Positions 3,401 through 60,220 of a stretch of DNA of 64,000 nucleotides are shown here, piece by piece. This stretch comes from Brasenia schreberi (Eukaryota; Streptophyta; Magnoliopsida; Nymphaeales; Cabombaceae). Numbering within the stretch: the stretch's first letter is position 1; every line of letters starts with the position of its first letter. Where the stretch lies: contig JAYKKT010000037.1 in NCBI GenBank assembly GCA_036023115.1, forward strand, positions 2,975,501 to 3,039,500, in the 5' to 3' direction. The translations under genes and the position numbers were made by a program. The notes below the pieces were generated by a model that was not told where the DNA came from, did no database searches, and saw only the letters and a list, made by a program, of their open reading frames with translations.

Positions 3401-5440
3401 CCGTTGTTCCTGGATGGAACGTCTCCGTTTTACCCCTTATTCTCATGTAGCTCTACCGACCTTTCGGTCACCATCATGGCCTCGTACATGTCAATTGGAT
3501 TGTGGTGCCTATCTCAGCTTGAGCCCATGTCTGGATCTTGTGCACAAAGAAGAAGAGCTAATCTTTTGAACTCATATCATCGATCTAAAGGAGGGCGGAA
3601 GAAACCTTTGTACGTATTCCCACAAGCTCCTAGTGCGTTTTGCCATCAAGACCGTCTCTTGAGCTTTCCAATCCTTATAAGACGGCAAAACATGAGGTCA
3701 AATATCTTCTTTAAGCCAGTCCCAGGCAGTGATCATTTTGTTTCACCTAGTTTTGTATCACCGTCTAGGTACAACATGGCTTGGAGTAACTGATCTTTCT
3801 CCAGCATGTGAGTTGCTTTGAAAGGTCTCCACATTATAGATCTGATTCTCCATCTCTATGAAATCTCAAATACAAAGAACTCGTCTGGTTTGGGCACTTT
3901 AAGTTGTCGGTGTGCTGGTGTTGCACCACCAGTATCTGTCGGGTTCAACAAAATCTGTAGGACATTGATAGACATCACTACCTACAGTAATAGTATAGGA
4001 ACATTGGTCGATGTATGGCTGGCTCAGGCTTCATTCAAATCCACTTGCAGTTGTTGTATCTGCTTCTCAAGCATGGCTTCCTTGCTCAACAATAGTCATG
4101 GATGCAGGGACTTGTTCTCATATTGAAGATTGTGACCTAGTGTTAATCATTATGCATGTGATACTATTGTTAGACGAATAATGTTAATCTTGGCAGAACA
4201 TTATCATTTATGTGTGTCGTTAGCGATGGATGTAAGGCACTCGGTGAGTGCATGAACCTGGTCTGTAGGGCACCTCTCTATCATTATGGTCTTCAATAAG
4301 AGAGGTCCAAGCACGATCCCACAACAGTTTTTCTTACTAATTCACCTCCCATGAACAACCTACACACGACCACCAAATGTCACAGGGCATACGTGAACAA
4401 ATCTGTATTAAAGTGACATACCGTGTAACGAATAAATCTAAAAAGTATGACACTAATAAAGTAAAATAAAATAGGATCAAATGAAATTCCTTTTGACAGA
4501 TCCAAATCCCTAAAATCTCTCCAAATGGACCTATCAAATTAAAAGTGAGTCCCACACAACCAAATGTGGCCCTTAGACGCAACAATTGTGAGCTAATGCA
4601 TCACCAAGTGAACTTGAACAAGAACCCGAAGTGAAACCACCTGACACACTGCCACTTGGGCCACTAAATGTAGCCATCACCACCACCAAATGTTGAGCCA
4701 ATACCACCAAAGGCTGCTATAGGTATGCACGAAACTAGGCTCTTGTTTCGTCCAAAAAGCCCACTTCAATGCCAACAATTATGATGGAGTTCTACATTGC
4801 TACCACCGTGTCTCAACTCGCAAACCGCCCTGATTCCGCCTGTTTTCTGCAAGGTAAGGCCATGGATGATCCTATCCACATTTGTGGTCTTCCACCAGCA
4901 AAGGGGAGCCAAAATATGACCATTTTCGGTTGAAATTCTGTAGAAAATGACCAGGTAGCGCAAAAATGCAAATCAAGCTGAGAAAACAGCCAACAACTAT
5001 ATTTATTTTCAGCGAAAAAAATGCCCAAATTTTGTGGGATTTCTGCTGCAAATCAAAGGTATAATCCTCTGCAAAATCAATTCTTTTCATCAACAAAACA
5101 TTCCATGCAAAAGCAGCAACCAATCACTGAAGAAATGGACCAAATCAGAATCTATTATTCTCCCAAACCACATCACTACGGCCTAATTCTGGTCCAGTCC
5201 TGATTTTGCCACAAACGATGGCTCTCCACTATAATCCGCAGGTGGTCCTACCTTCCCACAGACCTAGAAACATCCACAGACCACCCACAATGATTGGATC
5301 TCCTTAGTGATGCTGGAATCGCTCGAAACAACTCTATCTCTCAACCAGTAAACTTGAAATTATGTTGGCTGCTCCTCGGTTGCCTTCCATCGGTTTTCAC
5401 AACCAAGAACCACCTCAAAGGCCATCAATCGTGGCCTTTA

Positions 5441-6360: not shown

Positions 6361-7190
6361 TACAGTACCAAATCCACAACGCAAGTCAAATGATAGGCCC
6401 ATGGAACTATAGCTTGATGAGCCTATTTCAACTTAAAATATGTGGCCTATGTCAAAGGGTGGGCCGACAAAGTTGGTACTTAACTTCTGCCTTCTCGTTG
6501 ACCTTCAATCGATGGTGAGAGTGAGGAAGCAGATCACTAGAGAAGTTCTATTGCCCCATTGTCAACATCGATTGCCTCTGGTCCCTTATCTCATCAAAGG
6601 TTCAAGAGAAGGTGTTGTTGGAGAATGCCTCACTAAAAGAAAAGCTTGCCTCCATCTTAGCCTATCATCCTCAAGGCAAAGCTCGTCTTGAAATTAGTTG
6701 GGAACAAGATTAAGGATGTCGTGTTTCTGTTGTCCTCAATTGCGTGAGGCTAAGTCATTTCATTTCTCTTTTTCTACGATACTCATTTAGTATGAAAGAT
6801 TGTTATTCGGGGGTTTTCTTTTGCTTCTCTTTTGCATTAATGAGTTTATTGCATATTTTGAATGCTTTACTAAATATGGAGATTGGGAATCATTTTGGTG
6901 ACTCATTATGTATCCTCTAAATGGAAGGTTTTCTTTATGTTCTTGATTGGTTATGCACTTTGGGTTTCACTGATTCTTTATTGAAAATGTGTGTTCACTT
7001 ATTTTCTGAAAAATTTTGGGATCTTATTTAAATGGATGATCTTATAGTGAATGTGATCAATGGGAGTATGGGTTATGGGGAGCATTGTAATATTCTTGGT
7101 TGGGTGATGACTTCGATATTGGTGAGTTGGTACAATATTCTTGAGAGGAAATAGTATTTAGCTAGGTAGTCATGTTTAGGATTTTCTTAG
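6361..7190. other. Unassigned sequence
   Basis: No gene, known repeat or RNA could be recognised. The open frame at 6440-6691 has no family motif. Confidence 0.3.
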
Positions 7191-7463
7191 TGTTAAAAAA
7201 TATGAATTTATTTGTTGTTTTTAGTGTTAGGTTTGTAATTTTTTATGTTTGGGTATTATTGTAATTGCCTGTAGTACTAAGGGTATTTTGATCATTTTAT
7301 ATTTAACAACCCATTATATAAGAGCTTGAGTACTAAGGGTATTTTGATCATTTTATATTCAACAACCCATTATATAAGAGCTTGATGTTTTGTATTAGGG
7401 TTAAGAGTCTAAGATTAAGAAAGAGAGAGAGAGGGGGGTAGCCTCCATTAGAGGGGTTGTTCA
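7191..7463 (+). repeat. E2 5' LTR, left part
   Basis: It begins TGTTAAAAAATATGAATTTA and matches the start of the 3' LTR at 17374 (TGTTGAAGAATATGAATTTA). It carries an extra internal tandem copy of about 62 bases (two units beginning GAGTACTAAGGGTATTTTG or TAGTACTAAGGG, about 7272-7384). It is cut at 7463 by the insertion of E1. Confidence 0.75.
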
Positions 7464-7781
7464 TGTTGAAGAATATGAGTTTAGACTCAGTTTTAGTAAA
7501 TTTGATGTTTTAGGTATTATTGTAATTGTCTGAAGTCATAAGGGCATTTTGGTAATTTTTTGTACTAAGGGTATTTTGGTTATTTTATATTTTATAACTC
7601 CTTATATAAGGGCTGATAGGTTGTATTAGGGTTAAGAGTCTGAGATTAAAAAAGAGAGAGATAGAGGGGCGGTCTCCATTGGAGGTCCGCCCCCTCCTTT
7701 AAATCTCCATTGTTTACTCTTTATCTTTTATTAATATTGTTCATATTTGATTATCCGCTGCATCTACCACAAATTCCAACA
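7464..7781 (+). repeat. E1 5' LTR
   Basis: It is 318 bp, begins TGTTGAAG and ends CCAACA (TG..CA termini). A TATA box (TTATATAAG) lies near 7602-7610, so it could still drive transcription. A purine-rich GAGAGAGATAGAGGGG stretch follows. Confidence 0.9.
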
Positions 7782-7793
7782 TGATATCAGAGC
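7782..7793 (+). other. E1 primer-binding site
   Basis: TGATATCAGAGC directly abuts the 5' LTR and differs by one base from the tRNA-iMet consensus TGGTATCAGAGC used by most plant Ty1/copia elements. Confidence 0.85.
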
Positions 7794-8269
7794 TTATTTT
7801 GAGCATTAGGAGCAGTAGAAGGTGGCGGCAGATTTGAGAGAATGTGTGGAAGTATGGTGATTGTTACATTTTAAAAGTTGGAAGTTTGCTTTGGAATCAG
7901 ATACTCTGAGAATCGATTAGGAGGAAGATTTGATTGTAAAAGTGTGTCATTGCTGTTGTGCTTAAGTATTGCATCAAGAGATCATAAGATCAAGTCATCA
8001 TCAGGATCTTTGCAGTGTCCTCAAGCCATGGGCGATCTCCATTTGCTATGTGATGCTGCTACTATGTCTACTTATATTGACGATGAACAATCACGAAATC
8101 TTTCTGGAGATATACCATACTGATGGTTTAGCATGGCAAGGCACTCCACCATTAACTTATAAAGCAATTCAGATCAAGAGGTGAACGTGCAAATCAGGAG
8201 ATTATAATCCAACTGACCGTTGTAAATGAGACTAGTTGCTCTATTCAGGCAATTATTATCAAAAAAGTT

Positions 8270-8515
8270 TCAATGATTCCACGCAGTGAGGATGCTGTCT
8301 AAGTGACTTAGAATGTTGCGAACTTCTTTGTCAGCAAGGCTCGAAAGTCCTTGAATAGGCCGCCTCCGAGAAAGGTTTGGGACAATCTCATTTACAACTA
8401 CAACCCCACATTCTGCGGGAAGGTAGGCAAGGGGTTTGACGAGGTTTACATCTTCTCTGCCTAAAAGGCTGAATGATCTTTGTAGATGATGATCTGCAAA
8501 TCTGTTGATCGACAA
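8270..8515 (-). other. Antisense open frame inside E1, function unknown
   Basis: An 81-codon minus-strand frame has protein-like composition (for example LAYLPAECGVVVVNEIVPN, then RRPIQGLSSLADKEVRNIL). I do not recognise the family. It may be a further captured gene fragment in antisense, or chance. It has no start context or regulatory signal. Confidence 0.25.
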
Positions 8516-8963
8516 TGTTGATGAACTTATGATTGAGACTGCTCTATGGGAACTATCATGAAAAGCTCATGGATGCCATCAGGAAGAAGAAGAAGATGAT
8601 GAAAAAGGAAGGTGTTGGCTGCCAAAAGCAATAATGATGGTGACCCATTCTTTCCACATTTTTTTAAGGGAGGTTACACAAAATCCTGAAAGAAGAAGAT
8701 TTGAATCTTTTTAGAAAAAGGAAAAGGTAAGTTTATTTCTTTTTGAATTTCAAATGCTGGAAATGACAGTTACAGATTATATTTCCTGATTTTGTGGAAA
8801 GTAAACCAGAAAGATAGTTATGGAAACTTAATTTCCTGATTTGGTGGAAAGGATAAGATAAAAAGAGAAGGATTATCCCACGTTTTTTAGGAAAGAAAAT
8901 GGTAACTGAAGTCCATCATCTACATAAAGAAAGTTACTGCAGAGAAAGAAAGGTGGTGGACTC

Positions 8964-9170
8964 ATGGTGCCGACTTTTGACAAGGAAAGCCGATCATGGA
9001 CTTTGGTATTTAAGTATTGGGAGAGCAATAAGGGATATGTTCTTAATGATAAGGACTGGTTTCGTATAGTGAAAGCGAATGGGTTCACCAAAGAGCAAAT
9101 CGTGGAGGTGCAGAGTTTCAGAGAATCGTCAACGAATAGGTTGTGCTTCTTAATTGGCAGAGTTGTCTGA
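8964..9170 (+). pseudogene. B3 DNA-binding domain fragment carried in E1
   Basis: The 68-codon frame reads SWTLVFKYWESNKGYVLND, then DWFRIVKANGF and LCFLIG. The family pattern of plant B3 domains is W-x-L/M-x-F-x-YW-x-S-x-x-YVL-x-x-GW-x-x-FVK, followed by a hydrophobic final strand. The match covers the central and C-terminal half of the domain; the N-terminal strands are missing. B3 proteins are plant transcription factors that contact DNA in the nucleus. The typical GD before the last strands is replaced here by a KEQIVEV stretch. The fragment begins almost exactly where E1 stops matching E2, so it is part of the element's cargo. It is too short to be functional alone. Call by motif, not alignment. 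Confidence 0.6.
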
Positions 9171-9589
9171 GGCCAAAAACCGATAAATGAACAAGGAGAT
9201 CCACATTTGGAGAATTGTTAAAGTTTTTTGTTATTATGTGTGCGTTGAGTTTTCTTGTTGATCAAACAGCCAACAAACAATCTTGCAACTTAGTTTCAAA
9301 AGATGGTCAGTTACCTAGTGGGCCCCACCTTCCCACAGTTTGGAAAGTCCTATTGAAGCAGAGCATCGTGGTAAACCTGGGCCAGATGTTTATTTCTCTA
9401 CTGAGTCAACCATACAGATCTTTTCATAAAAACAAGAGAATTTGGAGGAAGCAAATGGCCATGGATTTTTGAGCTTTGGGATCAGCACCACTACTTCATC
9501 TGTAAAGCACATAGTTAAAGCAAAAAGAACTATGGAAGTCCTTGTTAAAGTTGAGGATGATGCTGATCAAAATGCCAACCTAAATGTAG

Positions 9590-10534
9590 CATTCGTTGTG
9601 CCTTCTTTGGAGCCTCAACTATGATTGCGCCAATCTCATTGTCAATGTTTCTGTTGACTATGATGGACCTGTAGCTCATAAAAAAGATGCTATAAACTCA
9701 CCAGGTTCTACACAGCCTGTTAATAAAAAAATGAAGTCGTACCAAAAGAGGTTCTATTGCACTTGTGGCCGTGCATATCCTGATCCAGATGCTAAGGACT
9801 AGGTGGAGATGATTCAATGCTGCATCTGTGAGGATTGGTTCCATGAAAACCAACTTGGTCTTGGACCTTATGAAGAGATTCCTAGGGATGATAAGAGACC
9901 CGGTAGTAGGGATGTTGCAATTGAAAATGGATCTTCATCTTCTGTCATGCTTGAAAAAGATATTGCTACTCCTGAAAATCCAAATTTAGGTTGTATTACA
10001 AATGATTTTGATGTTGTTCCTAGATCGAGTGAGAATGATACACAAGCCGGTTCAGGGGAAATTACTGTAGCAGACCAAGAAATTAAGTTGCAAGACCCTC
10101 CTAACAATCTGGTTTGCATCCTTGGTCTTGACCTACCTAAGACATTACTTGTTTTAGAGAAGAAACCGATGTTTCTTTCAAAGGCTTGGAGAGATTGTCT
10201 GTGCAGGTGCAGTACTTGCAAGGAATTTTATACTAAGAAAGGTATTATCTTTATGGTTGACAAGGAGGACTCAATGGAAGAATATGAGAAGGTGGTAAAG
10301 CAAAAGAGGGCAGAGAATTTGCAGCAGAAAGAGGGTGTGGAACTTGATTTTCTTAACAAACTTAATCATGTTCAGAAGATAGATATTCTTAATGGCATTG
10401 CGAACATGAAAAATGAATGTCACTCATTTAAGAGTCCTTATCTTCCTTGCTTTCATCAGAATTTGCAAGGCTCAAAGGAGTGTGAAGTCATCGATACAGC
10501 CAGGCAAGAACTAGTTGATATGACGATAGAATAG
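9590..10534 (+). pseudogene. UBR7: UBR7-like PHD-finger E3 ligase fragment carried in E1
   Basis: UBR7 proteins carry an N-terminal UBR box, a PHD finger and a conserved C-terminal block; the human protein ubiquitinates histone H2B. The reading here starts in weakly recognisable sequence near 9590. It then gives SYQKRFYCTCGRAYPDPDAK, an in-frame TAG at 9800-9802, and VEMIQCCICEDWFHENQLGL, the first half of the PHD finger. The second half, with the last zinc-binding cysteine pair, is missing. A divergent linker follows, then FLSKAWRDCLCRCSTCKEFY and FLNKLNHVQKIDILNGIA, closely matching the family C-terminal block. The frame ends at a TAG at 10532. The UBR box is absent. No introns interrupt the approximately 800 bases that align, which suggests capture through RNA. 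After the single stop, 243 codons remain open, so decay is recent or constrained. Confidence 0.85.
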
Positions 10535-10734
10535 TGAAATATAGTAACATATGATGTGCGCATCAGTTGATGCTATGAGTTTTCTGGAGAGAGATGTTCA
10601 GAAAACAGTATGAAAAAGCAAGGAAGATAAGGCAATCGTGTAGGGGCGTTAATGCCCAATATGCCAATTCTTGAAAGTTTACAGAAAATAGATAAATGCT
10701 GAAGATTGTAGTCATGAGGACTGCCAAAATGGTT

Positions 10735-10990
10735 TTATTTGCAGTCATTGAAGTTGCAAAAATTTGCAGCTATGAAAGTTGTTGAAAGAAAAGACTGCCA
10801 TGAAGGCCGATAAAAGTGTGTTGCAACCATGAAGGCTGATGAAAGTTAATTTGCAGCAATGAAAACTGCTGAAGAAAATAGTGCAGCCATGCAATTGTGA
10901 TGAATAGCTAAGAAGGCTAAGTTGAAGAAGATTACAACAATAAAGGTTACTGAAACATGTTGCAGCAAAGAAGATTGCTTGGAAAATAGA
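10735..10990 (+). repeat. Degenerate short repeats in E1 3' internal region
   Basis: A motif of the form TGCAGCCATGAAGGCTGATGAAAG recurs about six times with a spacing of roughly 30-45 bases and much variation. A decayed version of the same array lies in E2 at about 16530-16640. The array is therefore an old property of the family and may be part of its packaging or RNA structure, but no role is shown. Confidence 0.55.
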
Positions 10991-11694
10991 CAGCCAAGGG
11001 GCTGAAAAATTCATAAAAATACAGAAAAAAATATGAAGTCTTACTTCTTATTTGGTCAAACAACAGAATTGGAAATAGAAGAGAAATATAGAATGCAGGA
11101 AAATCAGTCTTTTTCACTACATATGCATGACAAATCAAATCATAGAAGAGGCTAGAGAAATTGATTGGTATGGAATGTAGCAGTGTCACTAAGAATCATG
11201 AAAGTTAAGACCTTGGGTTGCTGAAGTAAACAGCCAAGAGTGCTGGAAAAGTGGCTACAGTCACCATGTGAAGGGGCGAAGACCGACTAGTATGAGCAGA
11301 TGTTTGTATTATGCTATTTGAGTGATAGAGAGAGGGCACCCAACCAACATACCGGCTGCAACCACCATGTAAAGGGGCGTAGGGAAAGTCGTGTGAAGTG
11401 TGTATGGTGGCGTAATACCTCCTATCACAAAAGATCAGCTTTCTCAAGAGTAGAAAAGAAGGGTCGTATGCTACCCATGTGTTCTTCACCAATGTGAGAG
11501 AAAACCGAATCACTTTATGGAGAAGAAGGAAGAGAGAGGGAGCAACCGACACCCATAGAAGGGTCTTGTGCTACCCATGTGTTCTTGAGTGTTTAAGTTG
11601 TTCTATAGAAGCCTCAAAGAGATCGCTCGTGCACGTGTGGTGAAGAAAAAACTAATTTTTTGGCAAGTTTGGAGTTCGAAGTATCTCACTCCTA

Positions 11695-11706
11695 ACTTGA
11701 GGGGGG
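11695..11706 (+). other. E1 polypurine tract
   Basis: CTTGAGGGGGG immediately precedes the 3' LTR. This is the plus-strand primer site expected in an LTR retrotransposon. The matching site in E2 (AACTTGGGGGGG) precedes 17374. Confidence 0.8.
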
Positions 11707-12027
11707 TGTTGAAGAATATGAGTTTAGAGTCAGTTTTAGTAAATTTAATGTTTTTAGGTATTATTGTAATTGTCTAAAGTCATAAGGGCATTTTGGTAAT
11801 TTTATGTACTAAGGGTATTTTGGTCATTTTATATTTTACAGCTCCTTATATAAGGGCTGATAGGTTGTATTAGGGTTAAGAGTCTGAAATTAAGAAAGAG
11901 AGAGATAGGGGGGGGGGGCTCCATTGGAGGTCCACCCCCTCCTTCAAATCTCCATTGTTTACTCTTAATCTTTTTATTAATATTGTTCATATTTGATTAT
12001 CCGCTGCATCTACCGTAAATTCCAACA
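11707..12027 (+). repeat. E1 3' LTR
   Basis: It is 321 bp, begins TGTTGAAGAATATGAG and ends TTCCAACA. It is nearly the same as 7464-7781, including the TATA box (CTTATATAAGG near 11845-11855). It has a longer G run near 11910. Confidence 0.9.
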
Positions 12028-12117
12028 ATTCTATCCTCCTATCTCTATTTTTATTCTTATCTTTTTTTATTGTTTCTCATTATCGATTATCCATTGCATT
12101 TACCACAAATTCCAATA
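12028..12117 (+). repeat. E2 5' LTR, right part
   Basis: It resumes the outer LTR after E1. The end reads CATTTACCACAAATTCCAATA, aligning with the E1 LTR end, and is followed at 12118 by the primer-binding site TAGTATCAAAGCT and a leader resembling that of E1 (GAGAGCAGTGGGTAGTGGC against AGGAGCAGTAGAAGGTGGC). Confidence 0.75.
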
Positions 12118-12212
12118 TAGTATCAAAGCTATTTGATTGATGAGAGCAGTGGGTAGTGGCTGCAGACGTGAGGCAAAGTGGAAAAAAATGTTGAGGTTTA
12201 AGGAGATGTTGT

Positions 12213-12490
12213 TGTCATGATTTCACACTCAAACACAAATAAAATCAACAAAAATTTCAAAAGATGGAATATTGGGGCAGTCGGCTAGGTATACTGCAGT
12301 TGACTGCACCCTCTCTTTCTTCTCTTTATTTCCAACAATCTAATTGTTTGCTGGTAGGGTTTCCCCTTAAATACCAGCATTACAATACTAATCATACTTA
12401 CAACAATCATTAATGAGCCTAATTTAAAGCTACCTTTAAAACTAAAGAAACAATAAACTAAGTATTGTTCTAATTGTAGCCTTCTTAATA
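12213..12490 (-). repeat. E3 3' LTR (left copy)
   Basis: It is 278 bp, reading TGTCATGATTTCACACTC to GTAGCCTTCTTAATA on the plus strand. It matches 14725-15001 throughout with scattered substitutions. Confidence 0.9.
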
Positions 12491-12683
12491 CTCTCCCTCA
12501 AGTTGGGTGAAAGATAAACGTTATACCCAACTTGTTACATAGTCTTTGCAACAGATTTCTGTTAAGAGCTTTGGTTAACATATCTGCACACTAATTATCT
12601 GTCTTCACATGTTCGAGTTCAAATTCTTTGGAGCACACACTGTCTCATATAAAGTGATAGTCAATTTTAATATGTTTAGTTCT

Positions 12684-13203
12684 CTAATGATACACAGGAT
12701 TTGATGCAATTTGAATGATTGCTTTGCTGTCACAATAGAGAGGGATGAGACCCTCTATGGATATTCCGATTTCCATTAGTAGAGAATGAATCCACTTCCC
12801 TTCACATATCCCAAATGCAATAGCCCTATACTCTGCTTCTGTTGTTGATCTAGTTACAACTAATTGTTTCTTACTTTTCCAAGATACGATATTGCCTCCA
12901 GCTAATGTCACATAACCAAAAGTCGACTTCTTCTGCAGAACCTGCCCAATCAATGTCTATATATACTTCGATTTTATTCTTACCATTAGTGCTATACAAC
13001 ACCCCATGTCCAGGAGTACCATTCCTCAGTTCACCACGACCAAAGGTTTTTTCCGTCCTTAGATCTTGAAAAATAGAACCAAAAGAGGAAAAAGTGACTG
13101 AACAATTCATGTCTTTAATCAAAGAGCTAACTAATAATAGATTAACTAAAAATTTAGGAATGTAAATGACTAAATTTAGTCTAAACCGTTTAACTTGTAT
13201 CAC
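12684..13203 (-). pseudogene. copia pol remnant: GAG-pre-integrase joined to RNase H
   Basis: The minus-strand frame from 13203 reads LVNLLLVSSLIKDMNCSVTF and GRGELRNG. This is the GAG-pre-integrase segment that precedes the copia integrase. Within the same frame it passes to VYIDIDWAGS, the start of the copia RNase H. An overlapping frame (12953-12684) continues with GYVTLAGGNIVSWKSKKQ, RSTTEAEYRAIA and LYCDSKAIIQIASNPVYH, the RNase H core. A deletion of about 2.5 kb relative to a full element must have fused the two ends. It cannot encode integrase or RT. Confidence 0.85.
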
Positions 13204-13399
13204 TCCCTATCCTTCCATTTGAATTAGGGATCCATCAACAACTTTCATATATTGTGGTAGAGAAGTATTTTTATATTCAATCAACCTTGACTTGTCTCCT
13301 ATCATGTGATCAGTAGCACCGTAATCTATAACCTAGAATTTAGGACATGAGTAATTAAAATACAAGTTACCATTGATACTATAGGATGCATGAGTGTTT

Positions 13400-14711
13400 G
13401 TTTCATTCTTAGGAGCAGATGTGGAAGGTTGCACTTACAGCCGTGACTCAATTTCAACTAATTTCCTTCTCAGTTTGATCATTTCATCCATAGAACTTGG
13501 TTTAGTCTTCCTCTCTGAAGTGGCTGCTATATGACTCCCATATCCCTTATAGTCAGTCGGTCAACCAATAATTTTCCATCACTTATCGCGTGTATGACTT
13601 CTCTTTCCATAATGTGAACACTAATTTATTTGTCTTCATAATGTTGACATCTACCAGTTCCACCTCTACCTCATTGAAAATTGGTTTGACCTCTTCCAGC
13701 GAATGATGACTTCTCAACCTGATTTTGTTCTCCCATTTTCAAATTTATTCGATTCTCTTCTCTCAGTAAAAGAGAATATATTGTACCCATCGAGGGTAGA
13801 TCCTCTTTGCTTAGGATATTTATTTTAATGAACTCATACTCTGGTGATATTCCCCATAAGAGATCAAATACTTTTCGTATCTCATTGTCTCTAGTACGTT
13901 CTTTAATGCAATGACTACATTTATTCTCGATAATGTACCTTTGTTCATTCTATAAACCATGCAATTCCTCATAGTATTCACTTATTGACCTGTCTCCTTG
14001 GTGACACTTTCTTATTTTTTCAAGAATCTCATACTCCTTCGCTCTATTGCGTTGTCTGGAGTAAACTTCTTCTACTGTTGTCCAAATTTCTATAACAGAT
14101 TCCATATACATAAATATCTTGCTAATTTTGGGATTAATGGATTGGAGAAGTGAAGAACTAACTAATGTATCATCCTTTGACCACTATTCAAATTCTACAC
14201 TATCTTCATCAGGCCGATTATGATTTCTATTGATATAAATGGATTTACCTCTAGACTTTAAGACAAACTCAATTGATCTAGCCCATTCCTTGTAGTTTCG
14301 ACCTTAAAGTCGAATATTAGTAATCTGGAACGACTCTATTTTCTGTTCATTACTATACCTGATTACTTAAGATTCTTCCTTGGGATGTCCTTCTATACTT
14401 ACTTTATGTTTTTCTTGGCAGATTTTTCACAAACATATGGTGGACAGACGCACACCTTTTTCATATTTTTGGTGGACAGGTGATTTCTACGAATAGATGG
14501 TGGGCAGGTGGATAGTTTTCCAAACTTGTTTTATTCTTTTATATATATTTTTTCTTTCTCAGAAATTTGTACGGACAGATGGTGAACATTGGACAAATTT
14601 ATTAAAATTTGTTTTCTTTCTTTCTATAGAATTTCTCAGATTGATCTTCTACCTTTCCATATCGCTACTATTTCTTGATTTGTATTGTTCACGAGCACAT
14701 ATAGCCTTAAA
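13400..14711 (-). pseudogene. E3 gag-like region, decayed
   Basis: This region lies between the primer-binding site and the pol remnant on the minus strand, where gag belongs. Many stops are present and no long frame survives. A cysteine/histidine-rich patch near 13600-13690 could be the zinc knuckle. The call rests mainly on position. Confidence 0.4.
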
Positions 14712-14724
14712 GGCTATGATATCA

Positions 14725-15001
14725 TGTCACGATTTCACACTCAAGCACAAATAAATTCAACAGGAATTTCAAAAGATTGAATATTGGGGCAGTCAGCTAG
14801 GTATACTGCAACCGATTGCACCCTCTCTTTATTCTCTTTATTTCCAGCAATCTAATTGTTTGCTGGTAGGGTTTTCTCTTAAATACTGGCATTATAATAT
14901 TATTCACAATTACAATAATGCCATTAATGAGCCTAATTTAAAGCTACCTTTAAAAACAAATAAACAATAAATTAAATACTGTAATCGTAGCCTTCTTAAT
15001 A
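14725..15001 (-). repeat. E3 5' LTR (right copy)
   Basis: It is 277 bp and pairs with 12213-12490. It is followed on the plus strand by the target duplication GTTGT at 15002-15006. Confidence 0.9.
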
Positions 15002-17373
15002 GTTGTTGCCGCTATGGAGATCGATGGAGATGGAAGATGAGGCATGGAGCAGACTTTTGCAAGTGTGCAGACTGGAATATTCAATTTGGGAATCTTCACA
15101 TGAATCTGGATTGGCTTGATAATCTTGACGAGAAGCCAGTAGGCATTGCCTTCACATAAGCTAAAGAACATCACTAACTTCTAGAAACCAATGGGGCAGA
15201 ATGGACGACCAAGCTGCCTTGAGATGAAATATCATTTTTTGGTGCAGGTTTAATTGGCCATGGTTTGTCTGTCAGGTGGACTGAGAAGGCTTGTCGCTTG
15301 ACCTTTTTTTTTATTATCAAAGCAATTTCTCCAATCAGATGTCCACAAGGAAACATGAAAAAAAAAACTCCCAGCATTGTGCCAAGAGGCCTAGGTAATG
15401 GAGATGATGTGGGCATTGCCTGATGGATGCTTTGTTGTTGTGGTCTCCCTCTTTGGGAGAGCAAATGCGAAAGGTGGAAGAAGACAAAAAAGGAAGGTGT
15501 TGGTTGCCAAAAGTGACAATGGTGGTTGACCCATTCTTTCCAAATTTTTCCAAAAAAGGTTACACAAAAATCTAAAAAGAAAGATTTTTTTTTTGAAAAA
15601 GGTAATTTCATTTTTGAATATTAAATACTGGAAAAGTAAGTTACAAATTACATTCCTAATTTTATGGGAAAGCAAACCAGAAAAGTAGTTATGGAAGACC
15701 ATTTTCCTAATTTGGTGGAAATAATAAAATAAAAAGAGAAAGATTATCTCCATGATCTTAGAGAAAAAAATTGTTAATTGTTGCCCATCATCCACATAAA
15801 AAAAGTGGTTGTTGAGAAAAGGTGGTGGTTAGTTGCCTAGTCATACCATCCATTCCAGATCTTGTGTAATGTACTGAAAAATGAAGGTGCAAAAGAGATG
15901 GCAGGAACATGAGTTATAGAAAGACTGCTGACAAACTTTAGATGGATGAGAGGTATGATGAGGTCGATCAACAGATGAACCAACAACAAAACCAACAATA
16001 TCAATGATATTTTTTATTGTAAGTACCAGTATGCATATACATATGCATATCGATTTTCGTGCCAAAGGGGGATATTGGGAACAAATGGCTAGTTCCTCTT
16101 GAAGAATTGATCATGATCCACTTGATATCATGACTGAAGCTAAAATCTTGTATAATTGCATTTGTGAGTCCATGCAACAGCTTGCAAAGGTGAACATATG
16201 AGGCAACTAAATCCGCTGTCGAAGAGCTTCCTAGATGAGAAGGAACAATTTGGAATACATTAATGTTATGTTATGGCCTTGAACTAAAACAGTTTGTTGA
16301 TACTGAAGTCAAGGACTTTGGAGGATGCATTGCTAATGTGTTTTTGAAGTGCAGTAGAAACTGAAAAGGTCATGTGTATAGTTGGTGTTGCTTTGAGTTT
16401 GAAGACTGTAGGATAAGTGTTGATTTTGGGGATAACCAACAAAGAAAAAGTCGTGATTGATGCAATGCAGATGCTGAAGATTGGAGTCACGAGGACTCCA
16501 TAAATGTTTTTATTTGCAACCAGTAACATTGGAGGAATTTGCAGCTATGAAAACTAGTGAAAAGAACAACCATGAAGTTTGTTGTAGTCATGAAGTTGAA
16601 GAAGATGAACAACCATGAAGGTTGAGTTGAAGTTATTGTAGTGCTGGAAAAGTGTTGCAACCAAGAAAGTTATTGCAAAATAAACAACTAAGAGAGCTAA
16701 AAAATTTAGAAAAAGATTAAGATAGTATTATATAGTTGTTGGTGAATGTTTTTCATTTGGTCAAATAGTAAAATGCACATAGAAGAAAAAATAGAGTGCA
16801 AAAAATCAATTTTTTTGTCATCACATATGCTTAAAAATAAAATCATAGAAGCCACAGATGTATTGCTTCTTATGAAATATGACAATGTCACTAAGAAAAA
16901 TGAAAATTAAGACCTTTAGTTGCTGAAGTGGACAACTAAGAGGGTTGAAAAAGCAATTGTAGTCACCATATGAAGGGGCGCAGAACCGACTAGTATGAGT
17001 AGATGTGTGTATTATGTTATTTGAGTAGTAGAGAGAGGATACCCAACCAACACACTGGCAACAACCACCATGTGAAGGGGCATAGAAAAGGTAATTTAAA
17101 GTGTGTATATTAGAGATAGTACCTCTTATCGTAAAAAAACAGCTTTCTTAAAGAAAAAAACATGACTTTTGAAGTGCAGTCACTTCATGGAGAAGAAGGA
17201 AGAGGGAGAGCAGCCGACACCCATAGAAGGATCGTGTGCTACTCATGTATTCTTAATTGTTTAAGTTAATTTAAAGAAACCTCACAGAGATCATTGTTGC
17301 AAGTGCAGTAAAGAAAAAACTAGTTTTTTGGCAAGTTTGGAGTTTGAAGTATCTCACACCCAACTTGGGGGGG
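15002..17373 (+). other. E2 internal region without gag or pol
   Basis: From about 15480 to 15829 it runs parallel to E1 8605-8959 (shared blocks include AAGGAAGGTGTTGG, TGACCCATTCTTTCCA and AAGAAAGATT). From 16471 to 17373 it parallels E1 10695-11706. Between these, 15830-16470 is unique to E2. That middle part has short frames such as QFVDTEVKDFGGCIANVFLK (about 16285-16345) that look protein-like, but I cannot assign them. It may be a different, more decayed captured fragment. Confidence 0.6.
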
Positions 17374-17545
17374 TGTTGAAGAATATGAATTTATCTACTG
17401 TTTTTAGTGTTAGGTTTGTAATTTTTAAGTTTGGGTATTGTTATAATTATTCATAATACTAAGGGCAGTTTGATCATTTTATGTTTAACAACCAATTATA
17501 TAAGGATTGGATGTTTTATATTAGAGTTAAGAGTCTAAGAATGCG
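17374..17545 (+). repeat. E2 3' LTR, truncated
   Basis: It begins TGTTGAAGAATATGAATTTA right after a G-rich polypurine tract and follows the E2 5' LTR to about GAGTTAAGAGTCTAAGA. Similarity then stops. The rest of the LTR and the right target duplication are missing. Confidence 0.75.
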
Positions 17546-17684
17546 AGGGGTAAGGAAGCTAGTCCTAGATAATAAGATCATAGACGGGTCTTTAAATCTT
17601 GCACACACGGAATACAAGAGATTGAGGTAATCTTTTTCTCTGTGTGTGTTATGTGAAGGGTTGCATGCACACCCTTGTTTGTAT

Positions 17685-18180
17685 CAATGTTATAAAAGTT
17701 GTATTGTATCGTATGATACAATATGCGATATGGGTGTATCGGTACATGAACTTATACGATTCATGTACCTGTGTCAAAAAATACATTTATCGCAATCATA
17801 TCACAGCGTATCATACGATACACTATGATATGGATACCATATCGTACGATATGGTGCAATATTTTAAATTTCAATTTAAAAAAAACACATTTGAGGTATA
17901 TTTCGACACTTCTAAATCAGCTTCTTTGGATGTTCTTGCATGTCTATTCTTTCTTCTTCTCTTCAAGACCAACTCCTTTCTTTCTAAAAATCTGATATAT
18001 ATTCAAGTTCAACATTCATTAATTTATCCTAAGTTTAAAAGTGAGCCTCGAGAGAGATATATGCATGTTATTTAGTTTTTTTTTATGTTGAATCTGTTGT
18101 CTCTTGATATGGTACATCTTATGATACAAGTGTATCGGTACCCCATACGATTAGGGTTTGATAAGATATTTATGACATTG
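17685..18180. mobile_element. hAT-like MITE rich in palindromic GTATCGTATGATAC motifs
   Basis: The ends form a diverged inverted repeat: CAATGTTATAAAA on the left, and CAATGTCATAAAT when the right end is read on the other strand. The flanking 8-mers GTTTGTAT (17677-17684) and GTTAGCAT (18181-18188) match at six of eight positions, as expected for an old hAT target duplication. The inside is full of short palindromes built on ATCGTATGATAC and GGTATC. The open frames across it are by-products. No transposase is encoded. Confidence 0.6.
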
Positions 18181-49577: not shown

Positions 49578-49994
49578 TCAAAACTTTAGAAATTTCTCTA
49601 TAACAGACATAACAGTAAACTTATCAGGAAGCTCCTTTTTAACTTCCTTCAAATAATGGCATAAAAACTTAAACACATGAGCCTTTTTGTTCACAAATTT
49701 CTCCTCTACCATTTGATATTTAAGGAACTTGGTCATGAAATACTTTTCAAGACTGAGGTCTTCAGTATTGTATTTCTGATCCAAGGTAGCCCATAGATCT
49801 TTTGTTATCGTGGAAGGAGAAGAACTATATACATCAAATAAAATATTTGATAATATCGATAAAATACAACAACATAGAGTGTCCTCCTTCCACTTGCCGA
49901 TTCTATTTAATCTTCTATGGTCAATATCATCGGATAAGAGACAATTCGACTTGATATACAGATGCAGTCTTAGGATGATTAACCAAATTTTCAT
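49578..49994 (-). pseudogene. E7 copia gag
   Basis: A 138-codon minus-strand frame contains KDLWATLDQKYNTEDLSLEK, KYFMTKFLKYQMVEEKFVNK and LPDKFTVMSVIEKF. These are conserved gag (UBN2-like) segments, as in W-x-x-L-x-x-x-Y then MLxxxLPxxFxxxxxIxxLP. The frame ends at a stop just before the zinc knuckle. Confidence 0.75.
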
Positions 49995-50120
49995 ATGCTG
50001 CTCTCAGTATTTAAAATATGGACCAACAAACTTTCCCAATATCAAGGTTAAGTTGACCTTAGGTCGGAGGGTAGCAAATACAAACATGTTCACTACGGTA
50101 AAAAATGATTTATCTAAGAT

Positions 50121-59146: not shown

Positions 59147-60220
59147 ATGCAAGAGGTGGAGATAGAGTGGTCGCCGGTAGTCCCGGATCTACCGGACGAC
59201 GTAGCCATGGACTGTTTAATTCGGGTTCCCCATAATTACCTAGCGTCTATGGGAGGGGTGAGCAAAAGATGGAGGGATTTAATCAACAGTGAAGGTTTTT
59301 ATCAGGAGAGGAAGCTCAGGGCCACCGCAGAGGGTTTCGCGTGTTTGATCCAGCAGCGACTTCCCGTCCAGGGCAACTCGTCCTCGATGAGGGAGAAGAG
59401 CGGGACAAGGACTCCGCCGGAGTACGCGTTGACGGTCTTCGACCCGAAGAGGAGAACTTGGGAGAGGCTGCCGCACGCAGACGACCTTCGCGGCGGCCTC
59501 CCACTCTTCTGCCAATGCGTTTCCGTCGAGGGAAAACTCGTCCTTCTGGGTGGTTGGGACAATTTGTCCTGGGAGGCGACCCGGTGCGTCTGGGTGTTTG
59601 ATTTCCGGACCCAGCAGTGGACGAGGGGGAAGGACATGCCGTCCCCCGCTCGGTCGTTCTTCGCGGCCGGGGGCAGCGGAGGGAAGGTCTTCGTCGCCGG
59701 CGGGCACGACGAGGGGAAGAACGCCCTGAAGATGAGTGCGGTATACGACGTGGGGAGAGATGAGTGGGAGGAGATGGGAGAAATGCATGAGGAGCGGGAC
59801 GAGTGCGAAGGGATGGTTGTAGGCAAAGAGTTCTGGGTTATCAGTGGGTACGGGACAGAGAGTCAGGGACGGTTTGTGGGGAGCGCGGACGTCCTGGACA
59901 CAGAGTCCGGGACTTGGAGGTGTGTGGAGGACGTTTGGGAGGCTGGGAAGTGTCCGAAACCGGCCGGAATTCGAGTCTCCAAGGACGCAACGAAGGTAAT
60001 TTGCCTGGCCGGAGAGGGGGAAAACGGCGCGGCTAAGGTGGGAAGGTGCGTTGTGCTGATGGGAGAAGGCGTGGCAATGGTGACGGGATCGGCGTACGAG
60101 GCTGGACCAGTCGGCTGTTATTTGGTGGAGTCCGGCAAGCAGGGCGATGTTTGGACGAAGATCGAAATGCCGAATGAGTTCGGCGGGTTCGTGCAGTCCG
60201 GGTGCTATGTGGAGATCTAA
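59147..60220 (+). CDS. F-box/kelch-repeat protein (KFB/SKIP20-like)
   Basis: This is a single-exon, 357-residue protein. The F-box spans about residues 11-56 (LPDDVAMDCLIRVPHNYL, then VSKRWRDLINSEGFYQERK) and would bind SKP1 in an SCF ubiquitin ligase. Kelch repeats follow, with the glycine doublets at 135-136 (LLGGW) and 185-186 (VAGGH), a variant SGYG at 233-236, and blade tryptophans at 105, 158, 207 and 257 (TW/QW/EW). The AMDCLxRVP and SFYQER-type wording and the length place it near Arabidopsis KFB39/KFB50 (SKIP20). Those relatives target phenylalanine ammonia-lyase and type-B response regulators for degradation. Which substrate applies here is unknown. The gene is strikingly GC-rich against an AT-rich background. 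The start ATG is the first in the transcript. It looks intact. Confidence 0.9.
   Translation: MQEVEIEWSPVVPDLPDDVAMDCLIRVPHNYLASMGGVSKRWRDLINSEGFYQERKLRATAEGFACLIQQRLPVQGNSSSMREKSGTRTPPEYALTVFDPKRRTWERLPHADDLRGGLPLFCQCVSVEGKLVLLGGWDNLSWEATRCVWVFDFRTQQWTRGKDMPSPARSFFAAGGSGGKVFVAGGHDEGKNALKMSAVYDVGRDEWEEMGEMHEERDECEGMVVGKEFWVISGYGTESQGRFVGSADVLDTESGTWRCVEDVWEAGKCPKPAGIRVSKDATKVICLAGEGENGAAKVGRCVVLMGEGVAMVTGSAYEAGPVGCYLVESGKQGDVWTKIEMPNEFGGFVQSGCYVEI

Follow-up and report, generated by a model that had tools for sequence, protein, structure and literature searches.

We analyzed a 64,000-base stretch of the Brasenia schreberi genome (contig C37:2975501-3039500, hereafter the window), which contains a long terminal repeat (LTR) retrotransposon, E1, whose interior contains pieces of several host genes. 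The original prediction, made from the letters of the window, described two captured fragments in E1, B3 and UBR7. Both are present and the list proved incomplete: searches of the assembly (1,055,133,615 bases in 92 contigs) trace the cargo to at least four host loci and five transcripts, namely B3, UBR7, a gamma-glutamyl hydrolase, and two transcripts here called V and X.

The E1 LTRs are 318 and 321 bases long, start with TG and end with CA, and show 12 transitions and 5 transversions among 318 aligned positions (17 differences; Kimura two-parameter distance, 0.056). At assumed rates of 4e-9 to 1.3e-8 substitutions per site and year, this divergence corresponds to an age of about 7 to 2 million years. 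BLAST and the small number of differences uphold the LTRs as a pair from one insertion, and the predicted primer-binding site (PBS) and polypurine tract (PPT) are both in place (Table 1). The genome contains 3275 forward and 3230 reverse occurrences of the TGGTATCAGAGC pattern of the PBS; written backwards, the pattern occurs 9 and 11 times. A Pfam scan covering 17 of the 21 stop-to-stop frames of at least 60 amino acids that overlap 7000-12500 found no gag or pol domain, although shorter remnants are possible; the frames left out were 8733-8915(-), 9698-9934(-), 11589-11777(+), and 12285-12497(-), the last of which lies outside E1. Within the scanned frames E1 is non-autonomous, in agreement with the predicted lack of gag and pol. 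Rfam gave no match within 7000-18000.

We searched for the source of the B3 piece with bases 8940-9200 and scored all seven candidates: E1 itself and six loci elsewhere, of which one on contig C77 matched best, at 97%. None of the six matches the E1 LTR or element-common parts (over 10 kb for five loci and 3.2 kb for one). The donor gene on C77, locus L038, outscores the other B3 genes for both B3 pieces of E1. Its GT..AG intron separates a 5' untranslated region (UTR) exon, ending CATCAG|GTATGT, from a coding exon that begins after ATGCAG and holds an open frame of 215 codons; in E1 the two exons are joined. Donor bases 4340-4705 are absent from E1, where 861 bases of other sequence separate the B3 pieces, so that B3 RNA is used twice, in donor order around foreign sequence. 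The original prediction overlooked the first of these pieces. At the site of the second, the related copy L031 has no B3, and its equivalent of 8953 runs straight into its equivalent of 9300. The predicted B3 frame at 8964-9170 is present and matches profile positions 30-95 of 101 in Pfam B3 (E 2e-4) at 21.7 bits, under the cut-off of 30.1. The 215-residue donor protein passes for the At2g31720-like B3 family (30.1 bits; cut-off, 24.4) and fails for Pfam B3 itself (22.2 bits; cut-off, 30.1).

For UBR7, the query 9560-10540 returned 38 matches at 37 candidates, all of which were scored. The donor gene, on contig C92, carries introns and no E1-like LTRs. Three loci, L028, L029, and L030, lack such LTRs and have two matching UBR7 blocks 0.9-1.7 kb apart; the intervening intron of L028 spans 1,548 bases (3465-5012), and E1 joins the exons at GAAGAG|ATTCCT. 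Compared with L028, E1 reads TAG for CAG at position 9800 and has lost 87 bases (29 codons), which removes the end of the PHD finger. The identification as UBR7 came from a protein search rather than from Pfam or solved structures: a 304-residue L028 fragment has 393 homologues at E <= 0.001 among 766 candidates, with many named UBR7 among the best 120, and its closest relatives among the matches listed, in Nymphaea thermarum and Victoria cruziana, are 68% identical, which by itself would probably place the plant in the water-lily order. Pfam and solved-structure searches gave no match for the donor fragment, nor did Pfam for the E1 UBR7 frames. UBR7 homology was predicted correctly for the frame at 9590-10534, but not its extent, as the stop falls at 9800 and homology covers only 9745-10428.

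The V and hydrolase region between the B3 pieces, searched with 8080-8590, gave 14 matches at 11 candidates, all scored, in E1, C70, and C81 only. Contig C70 holds seven blocks of 38-103 bases that are 94-100% identical to E1. Four plus-strand blocks represent the 3' end of gamma-glutamyl hydrolase (E 2e-7), with its last ~60 residues, the stop codon, and untranslated sequence behind it; the three V blocks are on the minus strand, 2.6-14.2 kb ahead of the first of these four. C81 repeats this layout for six of the seven blocks. The join between the second and third V blocks and two of the three hydrolase joins are bounded by GT..AG in C70, and the third hydrolase join has GG for GT. Neither the join between the first and second V blocks nor that between V and hydrolase is a splice site, and the latter shares TTTCAA. 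The sense orientation of V rests on a single GT..AG pair.

Across C70:906180-928140, read with gaps as L048-L052, the two sets of exons share one locus, with hydrolase on the plus and V on the minus strand. A plus-strand frame near 918170 reads YPVFGFQWHPEV, which we took by eye as an earlier hydrolase exon, in which case the hydrolase gene would have V on its opposite strand. The C70 hydrolase exons gave no match to the Peptidase_C26 profile, perhaps because they are short. Two other readings of this region were rejected. Bases 8330-8480 had appeared by eye to be one gene, but the genome search returned split exons and solved-structure sequences returned gamma-glutamyl hydrolase. V and hydrolase as one protein failed because the structure match falls only on the hydrolase side and V is on the opposite strand.

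Gene X occurs free of E1-like LTRs at L044 and L046, in long open exons of 518 and 535 codons, and searches gave it no name. In E1, UBR7 takes the place of a middle part of X. Pieces of gene X lie beside element-common sequence in L043, L045, L047, L017, L018, and L020, and UBR7 recurs in other relatives: from donor base 5031 to 5562 in L031 and L032, as a pair of joined exons ending at donor base 5053 in L033-L036, and in broken form in L037. Within the stretch read, two matching LTRs are present in L033, L034, and L037, and one in L035 and L036. Among the scored candidates the B3, V, and hydrolase pieces are private to E1, and the X and UBR7 cargo is common with relatives. This distribution suggests an older layer of X and UBR7 and a younger one, found only in E1, of B3 (twice), V, and hydrolase. 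Of the copies read, ten spanned 10 kb and three 3.2 kb; because all were selected by a match to E1 cargo, they are a poor guide to the average copy.

Two relatives contain further gene pieces. L047 carries a guanylate kinase fragment (3931-4371, minus strand; E 8e-18), whose DNA gave 22 matches at 18 candidates, all scored; at C62 and C85 an interruption of ~87 bases divides the piece, the pattern expected of an intron-containing gene, and five other loci with gene X carry it too. L034 holds a TPR-like piece (best E 4e-7).

Six donor introns are absent from E1 (one each in B3, V, and UBR7, and three in hydrolase), which argues for capture through spliced RNA; five are GT..AG in the donor, and in C70 the 5' side of the last hydrolase intron reads GG. 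All cargo pieces lie in the element's sense orientation, as predicted for B3 and UBR7. The predicted RNA route for these two is likewise borne out by donor genes and exon boundaries in the same genome, at intron-containing loci free of E1-like LTRs. No scored B3 or UBR7 candidate placed the two side by side at an LTR-free locus, and the nearest B3 and UBR7 genes are ~8.2, 7.9, and 7.5 Mb apart on C77, C79, and C92. Together these results suggest, with a probability of roughly 0.85, that E1 is an LTR retrotransposon of the non-autonomous kind and that repeated template switching assembled its interior from element RNA and spliced host mRNAs.

The donor loci, lost introns, sense orientation, and order of the pieces are direct observations, and switching among RNAs in one particle is the simplest and likeliest mechanism to link them. 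Proteins of another element would have copied and integrated E1, in a virus-like particle that also contained host mRNAs, and the growing cDNA would have switched between element RNA and host mRNA, in both directions, at points where short stretches matched. The younger layer may have arisen in one or a few rounds of copying; E1 later inserted into the LTR of E2, a relative of greater age. Uncorrected for chance, neighboring BLAST blocks share 1, 3, 6, 7, 7, 10, and 9 bases at seven junctions; at 9360-9378 and 9745-9762 the overlaps are 19 and 18 bases.

Table 1. Features of E1 and of the adjoining element E2, in window coordinates.
Feature	Position	Strand	Details
E2 5' LTR, left part	7232..7463	+	79-87% to E1 LTR; 85-88% to E2 3' end
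E1 5' LTR	7464..7781	+	93.8% to 11707-12027 (BLAST, 321 columns)
PBS	7782..7793	+	TGATATCAGAGC, one mismatch from TGGTATCAGAGC
Element leader	7782..7885	+	common with relative L047 (7709-7852 and 7846-7885 at 85%); 7886-7944 remains before B3 piece 1
B3 mRNA, piece 1	7945..8085	+	5' UTR exon spliced to start of coding exon; L038 3524-3584 (88.5%) and 4256-4339 (84/84)
V, three blocks	8085..8273	+	minus strand of C70:906262-917924; one intron absent
Gamma-glutamyl hydrolase mRNA, four 3' blocks	8268..8587	+	plus strand of C70:920481-927970; three introns absent; E 5e-7 and 2e-7
Element-common sequence	8581..8953	+	L047, L018, L017, L031, E2, and others, 70-88%
B3 mRNA, piece 2	8947..9309	+	last two thirds of B3 domain, stop, 3' UTR; frame 8964-9170; L038 4706-5065, 96.1%
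Element-common sequence	9300..9378	+	in L031 (4461/4464) abuts equivalent of 8953, without B3
Older cargo	9360..9762	+	common with L043 (89%); 9554-9762 is gene X; LTR-free L044 86.0%, L046 82.8%
UBR7 mRNA	9745..10428	+	two exons, intron absent; L028 at 96.2% and 93.7%; stop 9800; 87-base deletion
Gene X, short return	10420..10451	+	L044 87.5%, 32 columns
Element-common 3' region	10454..11706	+	ends in PPT 11699-11706
PPT	11699..11706	+	GAGGGGGG, directly before 3' LTR
E1 3' LTR	11707..12027	+	pairs with 7464-7781
E2 remainder (5' LTR end, PBS region, body, 3' LTR start)	12028..17540	+	12041-12134 vs 7703-7799, 80%; 17414-17540 vs 7231-7414, 85-88%

Several observations weigh against this account. 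Exact overlap can be measured at only two of the eight non-splice junctions (1 and 2 bases), the other six being blurred by mismatches. V and hydrolase derive from the two strands of a single locus, a combination that random RNA packaging would seldom yield. The break between B3 and V at 8085, with G|GTAAGG and TGCAG|A, resembles splicing rather than a plain switch. The bases flanking E1, GTTCA and ATTCT, match at three of five positions and form no intact target-site duplication.

The arrangement at 8085, where B3 stops before GTAAGG and V begins after TGCAG, is like that of a spliced B3-V precursor, and the two donors lie on C77 and C70.

The pieces could instead have been added as DNA, with retrocopies inserting into resident elements or elements recombining, and later copying carrying the result; we regard this as unlikely. 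The differing extents of UBR7 in L031/L032 and L033-L037 make swapping between family members plausible. Within the UBR7 exon, E1 shares letters absent from three donor genes with L031 and L032 (position 96) or with L032 only (position 57), and with L031 at positions 261 and 271, which are gapped in L032. These letters suggest that the UBR7 part of the three copies goes back to one element ancestor. However, no poly(A) tails or target-site duplications, the marks of an ordinary LINE-type processed pseudogene, were seen at the inner junctions by eye (no systematic search was made), the pieces are fragments of mRNA middles that all lie in sense, and B3 recurs in donor order around foreign sequence, all of which favor template switching. 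A UBR7 part of E1 wholly independent of that in L031 and L032 is a separate possibility that the letters common to them weaken.

It is also quite improbable that the cargo acts as RNA, with E1 transcripts yielding small RNAs against B3 or UBR7 genes. The high identity of the cargo to its donors speaks for such a role, but nothing in the sequence demands small RNAs, and with every piece in sense they would require a second, opposite transcript.

Open frames remain in the cargo (68 B3 codons with an ATG, and 243 UBR7 codons), and the UBR7 deletions relative to L028, of 87, 6, and 3 bases, are all multiples of three. Nonetheless, the B3 domain lacks its N-terminal part, the PHD finger has lost 29 codons and gained a stop, and B3 and UBR7 lie in different frames that do not stay open from one to the other, so that no frame in E1 joins them. 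B3 differs from its donor by three nonsynonymous changes and one synonymous change in 68 codons, and UBR7 by 23 and 9 in 222 codons (nonsynonymous divergence, 0.044; synonymous, 0.071), a ratio that includes the donor's own constraint. A new chimeric gene, in which transcription from the LTR would lead to a selected protein derived from B3 or UBR7, is therefore very improbable, and the predicted chimeric product combining DNA binding with chromatin reading is unsupported. The captured pieces are broken and are probably unable to give a working protein, and the cargo is most likely a passenger rather than a gene.

Gene capture by LTR elements is already known, and E1 is a rich case of transduction like that of Bs1, a maize LTR element with spliced fragments of three host genes (PMC13317346, PMC5408686). 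Both elements hold spliced fragments of several host genes between LTRs. In these accounts Bs1 has a transcribed and translated chimeric gene, whereas we find no fused frame in E1; E1 in turn combines five transcripts from at least four host loci, returns to one donor RNA a second time, and has relatives with other cargo in the same genome. A survey of rice and sorghum lists 672 and 1,343 LTR-captured genes, which, like the cargo of E1, are host genes inside LTR elements, many of them decayed (PMC3726574). Template switching between element RNA and mRNAs has been described (PMC5408686, PMC13317346), and the account of LTR-mediated retroposition in PMC5408686 includes brief stretches of similarity shared by element RNA and mRNA, use of only part of the parental mRNA, and, in theory, several switches. 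E1 has the short similarity and partial mRNAs, and differs in that several switches are visible and the donors are in the same genome. Pack-MULEs and Helitrons, as described in PMC13317346, resemble E1 as mobile elements that gather host gene fragments.

Pack-MULEs and Helitrons are DNA elements that as a rule carry introns, whereas the pieces in E1 are spliced and lie between LTRs. Our literature searches found no description of E1, no work joining UBR7 with an LTR retrotransposon, and, for the B3 domain with LTR retrotransposons and gene capture, nothing besides a pine study. The number of jumps in a capture by an LTR element is rarely visible. From its sequence E1 looks like a case of several template switches in one element, and because a single genome contains the donors, the relatives lacking the newest cargo, and about a dozen readable junctions, the number and order of switches become testable.

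We more tentatively consider, at slightly less than even odds, that host-mRNA patchworks are the usual interior of E1's LTR retrotransposon family, which would gather transcripts copy by copy, and that the B3-V-hydrolase layer records several switches in one reverse-transcription round, with one RNA visited twice and a sense transcript beside an antisense transcript of the same locus. If so, the family would be a steady source of chimeric retrocopies and a retro counterpart of Pack-MULEs.

The E1 flanks, when joined computationally, align in their first part to the 3' LTR of E2, and the E2 body matches E1 in blocks at 77-86%. Judged by these alignments, E2 is an older relative of E1, and E1 is inserted into its 5' LTR. 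E2 also contains an internal direct repeat (12213-12490 and 14725-15001; 280 columns, 87.5%). Elsewhere in the window lie a Copia-type gag remnant at 49581-50003 on the minus strand (PF14223; E 2e-5; 24.3 bits; cut-off, 27) and, at 59147-60220 on the plus strand, an intact F-box/kelch gene in a single frame of 357 codons.

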